DNA of 64,000 bases from Stagnimonas aquatica (GTDB taxonomy: Bacteria; Pseudomonadota; Gammaproteobacteria; Nevskiales; Nevskiaceae), in contig NZ_RJVO01000001.1 in NCBI RefSeq assembly GCF_003730135.1, forward strand, positions 582,001 to 646,000, given 5' to 3'. Positions 19,835 to 25,129 of the stretch are shown piece by piece (within the stretch, counting starts at the first letter, position 1; each line of letters opens with the position of its first letter). A program made the position numbers and the translations under genes. Below the pieces are notes generated by a model. It ran no database searches and was not told where the DNA came from. It worked only from the letters and a program-made list of their open reading frames with translations.

Positions 19835-21202
19835 CTAAGCCAGACGCTCCGCGAGCCGCCGTAGCTCAAGGTGATTTTCGGCGGCGATGGTTCTGAATCC
19901 GCTGGAAACCCGCGCGTCGTTCGCCAGCCGCTGCCAGAAGTCCTGGGCCAGCGGCAACATCTCGCGATACGCGGACTCCAGTCCGCTCAATGGCGCCGGC
20001 GGCGCGAACCGGGGCGTCAACACCTCGCCCGCGCGCGGCACATACAGCATTGGCAGCATGTCGTAGACCGGCGCCAGAACGAACTGCCCATAGCCCGGCC
20101 GGGCAGGATCGTCATGGTGCAGACCCAGATTGCCGTTGTGCATGTCGGTGTTGGCGATCAGATAGCCAAAGGCGGCGATGCGCTCGATCCGCGCGCCGTC
20201 CTCCGCAGCCAGCCTTTGCCCCGCAACGAGGGCGCGGGCAATCGCCGGCCAGGCGCCACCGAGGCCGACGAACTCGGCATCGACGGCTTCCAGGCTGACC
20301 AGACTGCGTCGGCCATGCGCGCCGACGCGGTCGAAGCGCTCGACTTCCAGAAAGGCCCGCCCCCCGCACTCCAGCCATTCGCTGCCGGCGGCGGCGATCC
20401 CGGCTTCACGCAGCGTCATGAGCGCCAGATGCTCGGCGCGGAGCAGGTCGGCCCAACGCAGACCGATGGATTCCGAAACCGGCGGCGAGAACTTGACCAG
20501 CACGTCGAGTCCGTCCGCCCCTCGCCGCCGCCGGAGCAGGAACTTCGCCTGTTCGCCAGCCGCCGACGAACCGGCGGGCTGCCCCTGCATGGTCTGGTCG
20601 GCGAACTGCGGGTAGAGCGCCGGGCGCTGCGCGTCGTCCACCCCAGGCCGCGCGCCACTGGGCTCCAGGCTGGCGTCCCACCAGCGGCGGTAGGCGACCT
20701 CGCCCAGCAGGAGATCGCCTTGCAGATCGTCGCCGCGCATGCACAGGGCATAGAGGGTGGTCGCGGCATCCCATTGGCGGACATCGGCGGGCAGCCGCAG
20801 CTCGGGGTAGCGCTGCGGGAACAGGCGTCCCAGGAATCCCTGCGGGCGCAGATCGTGGATCCACCAGGGCAAGTCGGAGTAGAGCCGGGTGGCGGCGCGA
20901 TCTCCGAGCGCGGATTCGAACCAGAACTCGCCGGCAGCGAGGCTGTGCAAAGTGCCGAGACGAATCGCCTCCCCCGCCCCGCTGACCCGGTAGATGGGAA
21001 TCCCGCTGCCGAGATCGCGGACGGTCGCCAGCAGGCCGTAGCGCCGCGCCCTCGCCGCGCCCATGGGCAGCACCTGAGCGCGCAGGGCGGTCAGTCGCCG
21101 GGATAGCGTCGGCTGGCTCAGGCCGGAGAGCTCGGCAAGCTCCCTCGCGCTAGCCGTACCGAGCCCCAGCCGGCGGAGCAGATTGGAGGAAACGGCGTCC
21201 AT
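19835..21202 (-). CDS. HipA-like kinase with N-terminal winged helix (HipH/YjjJ type)
   Basis: This 455-aa protein joins a MarR-like winged-helix DNA-binding region (residues ~5-60, ELAELSGLSQPTLSRRLTAL) to a HipA-type Ser/Thr kinase fold. The C-terminal half has the catalytic/metal region NTDMHNGNLGLH and LAPVYDMLPMLY, which match the HipA D-x-x-x-x-N and DxD-type active-site motifs, and a lysine in FLLRRRRGADGLDVLVKFSPP that could bind ATP. Unlike classic HipBA there is no separate HipB gene; the antitoxin-like DNA-binding part is fused, as in E. coli YjjJ. A 20-bp palindrome 14 bp upstream is a likely operator. Toxicity and kinase targets are unknown. Confidence 0.85.
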   Translation of the reverse strand: MDAVSSNLLRRLGLGTASARELAELSGLSQPTLSRRLTALRAQVLPMGAARARRYGLLATVRDLGSGIPIYRVSGAGEAIRLGTLHSLAAGEFWFESALGDRAATRLYSDLPWWIHDLRPQGFLGRLFPQRYPELRLPADVRQWDAATTLYALCMRGDDLQGDLLLGEVAYRRWWDASLEPSGARPGVDDAQRPALYPQFADQTMQGQPAGSSAAGEQAKFLLRRRRGADGLDVLVKFSPPVSESIGLRWADLLRAEHLALMTLREAGIAAAGSEWLECGGRAFLEVERFDRVGAHGRRSLVSLEAVDAEFVGLGGAWPAIARALVAGQRLAAEDGARIERIAAFGYLIANTDMHNGNLGLHHDDPARPGYGQFVLAPVYDMLPMLYVPRAGEVLTPRFAPPAPLSGLESAYREMLPLAQDFWQRLANDARVSSGFRTIAAENHLELRRLAERLA

Positions 21203-23176: not shown

Positions 23177-23947
23177 TTACTTGCGCATCCGGTAGCCGGT
23201 CATCAGCATCCACAGCGCCACGCCGGAGCAGACGATGAAGAAGCCGCTCATCCACAACAGGCTCTGCAGGATCGGCACGTCGGCGTGGCCGAAGAAGCCG
23301 TAGCGGAAGCCGTCGATCATGTAGAAGAAGGGATTGAGGTGACTGGCGGTGAACCAGAATTTCGGCAGCGAGTGCACCGAGTAGAACACGCCGGACAGGA
23401 AGGACAGCGGCGTGATCAGGAAGTTGGTGAAGGCGGCGATGTGGTCGAACTTCTGCGCCCAGATGCCGGCGATCAGACCCAGCGCCGCGAGGCTGCCGCC
23501 GGCGAGCAGGAATACGCCGACCAGGGCGAGCGGCTCGGCCACCGGCAGCGGCACGAACACCAGCGCGGTACCCAGCATCGCCACCGCCACCAGCAGGGCG
23601 CGCACCAGCGCTGCGAGGATGTAGGCGCCGAACCATTCCAAGGGGGAGAGCGGGGCCATCAGGGTGAACACGATGTTGCCCATCACCTTGCTCTGGATCA
23701 GCGAGGACGAGGTGTTGGCGAAGGCGTTCTGGATCACCGTCATCATCACCAGGCCCGGCACCAGGAACTGGGTGTAGGTGATGCCGTCGTAGCCCGGCAC
23801 CAGGCGCCCCTGCAGGGCCTGGGCGAACACCAGCAGGTACAGCAGCGCGGTAATCACCGGCGCCGACACGGTCTGCCCGAGCACGGCCCAGAAGCGCATG
23901 ACCTCCTTCTTCAGGAGGGTGACAAAGCCGATCTGGTCGGGGCTCAT
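23177..23947 (-). CDS. ABC-2 type exporter permease (YadH-like)
   Basis: A 256-aa inner-membrane protein with six hydrophobic segments of the ABC-2 family. MSPDQIGFVTLLKKEVMRFWAVLGQTVSAPVITALLYLLVF is a typical amphipathic-plus-first-helix start, and the mid-protein motif NAFANTSSSLIQSKVMGNIVFTLMAPLSPLEWF is characteristic of YadH. It pairs with the ATPase encoded just upstream on the same strand. Its start codon lies two bases outside a 269-bp foldback element that now separates the two transporter genes. The transported substrate is unknown; relatives of this pair are annotated as drug or polysaccharide exporters. Confidence 0.9.
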   Translation of the reverse strand: MSPDQIGFVTLLKKEVMRFWAVLGQTVSAPVITALLYLLVFAQALQGRLVPGYDGITYTQFLVPGLVMMTVIQNAFANTSSSLIQSKVMGNIVFTLMAPLSPLEWFGAYILAALVRALLVAVAMLGTALVFVPLPVAEPLALVGVFLLAGGSLAALGLIAGIWAQKFDHIAAFTNFLITPLSFLSGVFYSVHSLPKFWFTASHLNPFFYMIDGFRYGFFGHADVPILQSLLWMSGFFIVCSGVALWMLMTGYRMRK

Positions 23948-23948
23948 A

Positions 23949-24217
23949 AAGGCCTGTTAACACTATGGGAGTCGCTGCGGCCGAAGGCTGTTTTGGCGCA
24001 GCGCAAGGAAGGGAGGCCGCGCGATGGTTGATGCCATCGAAGGACTCGCTGACGCCGCGATGCGCCAAAACAGTCCGGCCCCGAAGGGTTGCTGACCCAA
24101 AGGCCGCCATGCGGCGTTGCCGGCCTCGCCAAGGCTCCAGCCTTGGCGTCGTTCGGCGCCTTGCCTGGCGACCTTTGGGTTAGCAACGCAGCGATTCCCA
24201 TAGCGTTAACAGGCCTT
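23949..24217. mobile_element. 269-bp foldback element (MITE-like) able to form a three-way junction
   Basis: Ends are 31-bp inverted repeats (23949-23979 and 24187-24217) differing at two positions, beginning AAGGCCTGTTAAC. Inside are two further closed hairpin arms. Arm A is CTGTTTTGGCGCA/TGCGCCAAAACAG (23988-24000/24061-24073, perfect 13 bp). Arm B is GTTGCTGACCCAAAGG/CCTTTGGGTTAGCAAC (24088-24103/24172-24187, 15 of 16), capped by GCCAAGGCT/AGCCTTGGC (24128-24136/24139-24147). The layout is an outer stem with two inner arms. The right end supplies the last codons and TAA of the ATPase gene. No transposase ORF is inside, so movement would need help in trans; mobility is inferred. Confidence 0.8.
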
Positions 24218-25129
24218 AGTCAGCTCCAGGAAGATGTCTTCCAGATCGGGGTCGCGGGTGTGTACGTCCTCGATGTCGAGGCCGGCGGCACGCAAGGCGG
24301 CGAACACGCTGCCGATCGGGTGCTTGGAGGTTTCCAGCTTCAGCTCGAGGGTGCCGCCGGGAAGCTCGCTGGCGACCAGCGGCCGCAGTGCCTCCGGCAG
24401 TGCGCCACCGTTGCCCAGCTTCAGGCGCAGGAAGCGGAACGGATGGCGCGCCAGCAGTTGCGGCGTGGTCTCCAGCGCCTTGATCTCGCCCTTGTCGAGG
24501 ATGGCGATGCGGCTGCACATCTCCTGGGCTTCTTCGAGGTAGTGCGTGGTCAGCACCACGGTGGTGCCTTTCGAATGCAGGTCGCGCATGAAGGTCCACA
24601 GCGTGCGGCGCAGTTCGACGTCGACACCGGCGGTGGGCTCGTCGAGGATCACCACCGGCGGCTTGTGCACCAGCGCCTGGGCGATCAGCACCCGGCGCTT
24701 CATGCCGCCGGACAGCGCCCGCATCGAGACATCGCGCTTGGCCTTGAGATCGAGCCGCTCCAGCATCTCGTCGATCCAGGGCCAGACCTCCTCGCCACAG
24801 CCGTAGTAGCCGGCCTGGATGCGCAGCATGTCGACGACGTTGAAAAACGGGTCGAACACCAGCTCCTGCGGCACCACGCCCAGCCGGCGGCGGGCCTGGC
24901 GGAAATCACTGACGGTGTCGTGGCCGAGCACCGCGATCCTGCCCGAGCTGGCGCGGCTCAGACCGGCGATGATGCTGATGAGGGTGGACTTGCCGGCGCC
25001 GTTGGGGCCGAGCAGGCCGAAGAACTCGCCGCGCCGGATGCTGAAGCTGACGCCCTTGAGCGCCTGCAAGGAACCGTAGGATTTGCGGACCTGGTCGATG
25101 ACCAGCGCGTCCGGGGAGGGGGTATTCAT
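24206..25129 (-). CDS. ABC exporter ATP-binding protein (YadG-like)
   Basis: The 307-aa ATPase partner of the adjacent ABC-2 permease. Walker A is GPNGAGKST, the signature motif is LSGGMKRR and Walker B is VVILDEPTAGVD, followed by the H-loop TTHYLEEA. The ATG at 25129 (MNTPSPDALVID) is chosen because homology starts there and the upstream in-frame sequence is on the far side of the divergent phrB promoter. The last three codons (Lys-Ala-Cys) and the TAA come from the terminal repeat of the inserted 269-bp element, so the original C-terminus has probably been replaced by a few bases. The insertion also separates it from its permease by 258 bp. Confidence 0.93.
   Translation of the reverse strand: MNTPSPDALVIDQVRKSYGSLQALKGVSFSIRRGEFFGLLGPNGAGKSTLISIIAGLSRASSGRIAVLGHDTVSDFRQARRRLGVVPQELVFDPFFNVVDMLRIQAGYYGCGEEVWPWIDEMLERLDLKAKRDVSMRALSGGMKRRVLIAQALVHKPPVVILDEPTAGVDVELRRTLWTFMRDLHSKGTTVVLTTHYLEEAQEMCSRIAILDKGEIKALETTPQLLARHPFRFLRLKLGNGGALPEALRPLVASELPGGTLELKLETSKHPIGSVFAALRAAGLDIEDVHTRDPDLEDIFLELTKAC

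Follow-up and report, generated by a model that had tools for sequence, protein, structure and literature searches.

A multi-armed, MITE-like element family with IS5-type ends, probably moved in trans, in Stagnimonas aquatica and its relatives

In Stagnimonas aquatica, two genes of an ABC transporter are parted by a non-coding, strongly palindromic sequence of about 270 bp. Is it an inserted mobile element or a regulatory element fixed between the two genes, and what keeps its arms complementary? The window analysed here is a stretch of 64,000 nucleotides, in which the following features were placed.

23949-24217, no strand: whole element, non-coding, predicted three-way junction; the element proper is 23950-24216 by alignment with other copies
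23949-23979, no strand: left terminal inverted repeat; comprises the IS5-type end GGCCTGTTAACACTA and, further in, the conserved block TCGCTGCG
23980-24085 (limits approximate), no strand: arm B, with the 13-bp perfect stem CTGTTTTGGCGCA
24088-24187, no strand: arm A, GTTGC...GCAAC stem with inner hairpin
24187-24217, no strand: right terminal inverted repeat, complement of the left one with 2 mismatches
24217-24218, no strand: right copy of the target dinucleotide TA; the left copy (23948-23949) reads AA and is degraded
23177-23947, - strand: ABC-2 type permease gene, its start codon (23945-23947) adjoining the element
24206-25129, - strand: gene for the ABC transporter ATPase; the final codons and the TAA stop fall inside the element

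An inverted-repeat search extended the terminal repeat to 41 nt (23939-23979/24187-24227, 85%); its 31-nt core, 23949-23979 against 24187-24217, differs at two positions. Arm B gave a repeat of 17 nt (23988-24004/24057-24073, 94%) with 13 bp perfect, and arm A one of 25 nt (24088-24112/24163-24187, 88%). The end motif matched twice within the 64-kb window, as compared to a mean of 0.00 over 100 shuffles. Folded as RNA, both strands yielded a three-way junction, at -189.3 kcal/mol for the + strand (z -12.7) and -179.6 kcal/mol for the - strand (z -14.8), neither being equalled by any of 200 shuffles. Using DNA parameters, z was -12.2 for the - strand. The initial annotation had described a 31-bp terminal inverted repeat with two mismatches around two long arms, one with 13 bp perfect, and had predicted the three-way junction; all of this was borne out, far beyond chance. 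A search of the element against Rfam gave no family at the gathering cut-off and nothing near one.

The ATPase gene runs into the element on the - strand with its 3′ codons AAG GCC TGT TAA, the stop lying at 24206-24208. The element therefore supplies the last codons and the stop of this gene, as had been annotated. BolA and EPSP_synthase (MurA-like) genes are found beyond the ATPase/permease pair. These two genes overlap in congener G003, where the stop of the first shares letters with the start of the second (ATGA); in the window, the insertion has separated them. At the same junction, the relatives G006 and G014 (L079, L087) have gaps of 197 and 170 nt, which hold another palindromic sequence, one containing ATGTCCA..GGACAT. 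Elsewhere in the window, a 455-aa frame (19835-21202, - strand) has, by eye, the look of a HipA-type kinase with a winged-helix start.

Further copies with matching ends, a search for which the initial annotation had proposed, were indeed found. The 3.80-Mb genome (15 contigs), searched by BLAST and with an end pattern, holds 18 complete copies, of which 14 are two-armed (the window copy, L002 and L004-L015) and four three-armed (L003, L016, L017, L018). Four fragments add to these: L034 and L035, each half an element, L029, a single end, and L061:1256-1323, a deletion derivative that measures about 66 bp and retains both ends. In the four three-armed copies, as in L102 and L109, the third arm lies between B and A and is itself a long inverted repeat. 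Judged by their length, L119, L103 and L139 are probably one-armed forms.

Using a covariance model built from the 14 two-armed own copies, the family was detected in 71 of 100 genomes, own included (E<=1e-3), the figure for the 'same class' genomes being 2 of 15; copy numbers per genome are lower bounds, since 19 candidates were scored in each. An exact arm-B pattern run over the genome_contigs collection returned 56 stretches of named genomes, in which the conservation of arm B is by construction because the pattern demanded it. Two Stagnimonas MAGs account for 19 and 3 of them, two Nevskiaceae MAGs for 15 and 9, Sinimarinibacterium flocculans for 3, Solimonas aquatica for 2, Parachitinimonas caeni for 3, and Sphingomonas pruni and a Pseudomonadaceae MAG for 1 each. 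Paired ends surround most arm-B places (59 printed; 7 at an edge and unscored; one, L142, without a real pair). The same pattern had no match in viral contigs, and the whole element gave three partial matches on plasmids (two Azotobacter, one Variovorax). Many dispersed copies with terminal inverted repeats and without a transposase gene are what is expected of a MITE.

We then compared the insertion sites with the corresponding sites in relatives. At the window site, the flanks are at most 45 nt apart in 23 of 29 relatives' loci, 89-197 nt apart in 5 and unresolved in 1, the left alignment ending short of the permease start in several of them; scanning these 29 loci revealed no full element copy. 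Four congeners were also searched for the joined flanks of 12 more own copies. This revealed empty sites for L002, L004, L007, L009, L010, L011, L013 and L015, although the case of L004 is weaker because its left alignment ended 50-53 nt before the element. L012 and L014 gave one-sided flank matches only, and L006 and L008 were not resolved. Overall, congeners show an empty site at 9 of the 13 insertion sites searched. Together with the duplicated TA described below, this is the insertion polymorphism with target duplication expected of a MITE. According to the initial annotation, the absence of a second copy and the same intergenic region in relatives would have spoken for a fixed regulatory element; copies were found and congener sites are empty. 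These sequence comparisons support a mobile element family, not a fixed regulatory element.

Where does the element insert? Both ends carry TA in 54 of 87 copies, and 50 of these 54 show it in a Y-TA-R setting. The target site of the copies is YTAR, mostly CTAG, with TA duplicated. Duplication of the four letters CTAG was considered and dropped: in none of the 22 copies that do not have CTAG on both sides do the four letters agree between the two ends, and 21 are consistent with a TA-only duplication beside a fixed terminal G. CTAG stands at neither end in 23 of 88 copies.

IS630 elements duplicate TA with a preference for CTAG. The TA duplication and CTAG preference of our copies fit this habit, and a MITE derived from IS630, or from some other family that duplicates TA, was considered. 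However, a DDE_3 transposase (PF13358), present in 23 of 84 genomes, had no match at E<=1e-5 in any of five genomes of the genus (G000-G004), and the insertion sequences sharing ends with the element carry IS5-family transposases (see below). An IS630 MITE was therefore rejected, its chances being very slim. A relative, G018, has 18 IS630-type (DDE_3) matches, several of them equal in score.

CTAG is about nine-fold under-represented in the window (21 occurrences as compared to 181 expected from base composition); 7 of the 21 are at predicted stop codons, 9 in genes and 5 intergenic. With genes called by a codon-usage-based finder, not taken from annotation, an end coincides exactly with a predicted stop codon in 15 of the 18 copies of the own genome and in 41 of all 84 copies with two callable neighbours. 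Neighbouring genes are tandem for 10 own copies, convergent for 8 and divergent for none, and tandem, convergent and divergent for 48, 18 and 18 of the 84. A targeting of stop codons as such is not needed, because YTAR targeting and loss of harmful insertions suffice. A CTAG-like site may form a stop codon on both strands and is re-formed at each end. In consequence, insertions at gene ends, whose positions are observed, would leave genes intact and persist.

These positions also bear on another explanation, namely that the element is a fixed intergenic feature of the host, a regulatory RNA or a terminator kept because its RNA fold acts on mRNA ends. Such an RNA would account for the fold (z -14.8) and for the 15 own copies ending on a stop codon. 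It would also suit the orientation in tandem contexts, where the sense strand reads arm A before arm B in all 10 own copies and in 17 of 23 among L096-L151. However, this bias is missing in the loci of other relatives (7 of 15), 18 of 84 copies lie between divergent genes, congeners have empty sites and Rfam gave no family at the cut-off. The base pairs that bear on an RNA role are considered together with the covariation below.

Which transposase may recognize the ends of the family? The initial annotation had proposed a search for one with the same 31-bp ends. Insertion sequences with matching ends were found, the match covering 18-23 nt, not 31, and none being in the own genome. Three end types of the family match the terminal repeats of IS5-family (DUF4096) insertion sequences of 0.81-0.86 kb, found on plasmids and in relatives. 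On the Enterobacter cloacae plasmid CP071789.1, an insertion sequence measuring 811 bp with CTAG has 19-nt perfect repeats, CTAGGGCCTGTTAACACTA, on either side of an annotated IS5 family transposase; the query was an end of congener copy L100, and GGCCTGTTAACACTA is common to this copy and the one in the window. Plasmids of Acinetobacter lwoffii (NZ_CP032290.2) and Psychrobacter (NZ_MK422609.1) hold insertion sequences of 819 and 842 bp that end in TAGGGYGTGTCATCAATTA, as own copies L014-L018 do. In a profile search, the first frames of the plasmid insertion sequences matched DUF4096 and NCBIfam transpos_IS5_3, the E. cloacae frame piece scoring 109.2 against transpos_IS5_3, just under the cut-off of 110. 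Within genus g17, TAGGGCGTGTTGCCGTTT forms the ends of an 860-bp insertion sequence in G041, of an 859-bp one in G083 and of family members of about 270 bp in G055 (L288) and G060 (L316), that is, in different genomes of one genus. An end resembling those of own copies L012 and L013 (17 of 20 letters) was found on an insertion sequence in G070.

Among 30 DUF4096 loci from relatives, at least four (L260, L269, L271, L273) have paired ends of matching form; L265 has ends of another form, and most loci are unresolved or cut. An element and a same-ended insertion sequence were seen together in a single genome, G055. Of this insertion sequence only the left end was located, and the elements that carry exactly the same end (L302, L312) fit the model in part (E ~1e-7 to 1e-6). 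Five end types were tried against plasmids, two of which gave no match and one only five short matches. A Thioclava plasmid end match was discarded: its neighbouring transposase is annotated IS481 and a matching second end was not found. On the Acinetobacter plasmids L255 and L257, which carry one end of the second type, the script found no clear second end.

DUF4096 was detected in 21 of 84 genomes, as compared to 71 of 100 for the element family. At E<=1e-5, PF01609 and PF13340 (DUF4096) had no match in the own genome, G001, G003 or G004, and within the genus PF01609 was present only in G002; a co-resident IS5 transposase, as an IS5-MITE might have, was thus not found in the window's genome by profile search. 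Inspection by eye of G000, G003 and G004 revealed no pair of like ends at the spacing of an insertion sequence; one pair about 980 bp apart in G004 consists of the far ends of two adjacent elements whose end types differ. The IS5 partner is absent from the own genome, lost, or hidden in assembly gaps. Ends are nevertheless shared, over 18-23 nt and outside the own genome, with an autonomous element, and they match those around an IS5-type DDE transposase. Because three end types match the ends of IS5-family (DUF4096) insertion sequences, the element is probably an IS5-type MITE moved in trans.

Another partner could be the REP-associated tyrosine transposase (Y1_Tnp), which would make the element a REP/REPIN-type repeat. 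Being palindromic, multi-copy and near stop codons, the element resembles such repeats, and the own genome has one Y1_Tnp match at E<=1e-5. However, this gene (L236) is flanked by its own GTAG-type repeats with no element copy, and the copy-rich genomes G004 and G066 have no Y1_Tnp match at the same threshold. The association of the repeat with a Y1 gene is therefore not seen, and we rejected a Y1/RAYT partner, whose probability is next to nil. The Y1_Tnp match itself (L236:2078-2740, own C1:327077-327739) is RAYT-like and lies between two GTAG-type REP doublets, a separate family.

Overall, copies, empty sites, TA duplication and insertion sequences with matching ends support the inserted mobile element of the initial annotation. 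The window copy is very probably a member of a non-autonomous MITE-like family moved by an IS5-family transposase encoded elsewhere. From the matching ends, this transposase, of the DUF4096 (transpos_IS5_3) type, would recognize the terminal repeats and move the element into Y-TA-R with duplication of TA.

In a second step, we studied how the arms and ends vary among copies. For this purpose, 57 two-armed copies were aligned without regard to structure; the structure used was the consensus fold of the same copies, which favours the share of paired cells, and copies of other genera, which keep the layout, had been chosen by arm B. Paired cells amounted to 96.9%, as compared to 79.5% after shuffling. 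Changes on both sides were found in 71 of 102 stem pairs and in eight of nine helices, with 912 two-sided cells as compared to 250 expected, while in all six sliding controls pairing dropped to 35-41%. Over the 13 variable columns of the ends, complementarity within a copy is 92%, whereas identity between different copies is 40%.

Distances were compared over 51 copies, the six of other genera being excluded. The correlation is 0.93 between the distances of left ends and those of right ends. Between ends and cores it is weak, at 0.24, a value unreached in 2,000 permutations. Among the 41 copy pairs whose cores differ by at most 6%, the ends differ by at least 25% in 23. L100 and L146, from one MAG, share 98.6% of the core, and their left ends differ at 8 of 22 positions, matched on the right. 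Near-identical cores thus carry different end pairs, showing that the end pair is exchanged as a unit on a conserved core. Such exchange would permit the use of different IS5 transposases.

Where cores are more than 96% identical, 19 arm differences are one-sided and 2 two-sided; older pairs differ mostly on both sides, and below 93% core identity two-sided changes outnumber one-sided ones, copy pairs not being independent. Private decay is one-sided, and spreading lineages keep their arms complementary. In the youngest class (cores >96% identical), paired arm sites change five-fold less than unpaired ones (0.010 versus 0.052), which favours a constraint on the stems. In older classes, they change at 0.34 to 0.93 of the unpaired rate, pointing to fast paired change.

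We also counted mismatched pairs by strand. Among pairs common to the folds of both strands (Watson-Crick majority), G-T occurs 72 times and A-C 56 times. Pairs of the arm-B-first fold alone have 27 G-T and no A-C, those of the other fold alone 2 G-T and 19 A-C. Because G-T and A-C are nearly balanced where both folds agree, selection on an RNA strand is little supported. For the regulatory RNA discussed above, the arm-B-first strand offers two stem positions that are G-T in 42 and 55 of 57 copies and, in its own fold, an excess of G-T over A-C in all three parts (29/20, 77/8, 89/29). The near balance of 72 to 56 stands against it, however, as does the fact that, in tandem copies of the own genome, the strand richer in G-T is antisense. 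With the empty sites and divergent contexts, this makes a fixed regulatory RNA or terminator highly improbable.

The initial annotation had also held that the nested symmetry exceeds the needs of a simple MITE and hints at selection for folding, as DNA or RNA. The suspicion was a good one, since changes on both sides of the stems preserve the shape across the family, probably by way of the DNA. Selection may or may not lie behind this, G-T and A-C being nearly balanced in the pairs that both strands' folds share. Template switching between the arms of inverted repeats is a process described in passages of the literature (PMC8604942; PMC7202029), and it could explain much of the covariation without selection. 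The alternative to template switching, that the arms stay complementary through selection because transposition requires a folded DNA (or RNA), has a probability not far short of even. The 71 covarying stem pairs, the layout retained in other genera within a set chosen by arm B, and the low rate at paired sites between the closest cores argue for it. The rate at paired sites in older pairs (0.78-0.93 of that at unpaired ones), the predominance of two-sided changes below 93% core identity, the pairs not being independent, and the few G-T or A-C intermediates argue against it. More tentatively, and clearly below an even chance, the folded chassis and not the ends may be what is conserved. The family would then be a parasite of parasites, whose multi-helix core persists across genera and repeatedly swaps its whole pair of IS5-type ends, which would let it ride on different transposases. 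Palindrome-templated copying of the DNA would both mend the arms and transfer a new end to the opposite side.

Elements of this kind are already known. MITEPsy1, from Pseudomonas syringae pv. phaseolicola, has been shown to transpose in vivo and is assigned to IS5 with a question mark in Table 1 of its description (PMC3189936). Likewise targeting CTAG or YTAA, MITEPsy1 differs in being 100 nt long, with 18-nt ends of another sequence and a reported 4-nt duplication. In contrast, the present family measures about 270 bp, is multi-armed, duplicates TA, has many end types and shows end exchange and covariation through its structure. The IS5 insertion sequences (transpos_IS5_3, NF033580/DUF4096, 0.81-0.86 kb) share the terminal 18-23 nt and YTAR with three end types, but carry a transposase, and the inner block TCGCTGCG is in none of those read. 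MITEAba12 is gene-less and has ends in common with an insertion sequence; it is 113 bp long, with ends GGCTTTGTTGC and a 9-bp duplication, as given in passages of PMC6382973. REPs and REPINs with their RAYTs, as presented in parts of PMC3733652 and PMC3116915, are likewise palindromic dispersed repeats but have other ends and another partner; the GTAG-type repeats of the own genome are separate. Among open-access papers, a literature search found no description of the present family. With its several arms, paired arm changes and exchanged ends, it looks new.

MITEs are generally described as keeping their ends and losing their middle, a pattern that this family nearly reverses. As a natural data set, it allows the exchange of ends and the homogenisation of palindrome arms to be traced over many copies. 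It is also a warning that strong covariation, usually taken to mark a functional RNA, is possible in mobile DNA that shows little sign of preference for an RNA strand. Finally, a CTAG-like target makes the element gather at stop codons where CTAG is rare, and an insertion can part genes that overlap in a congener.
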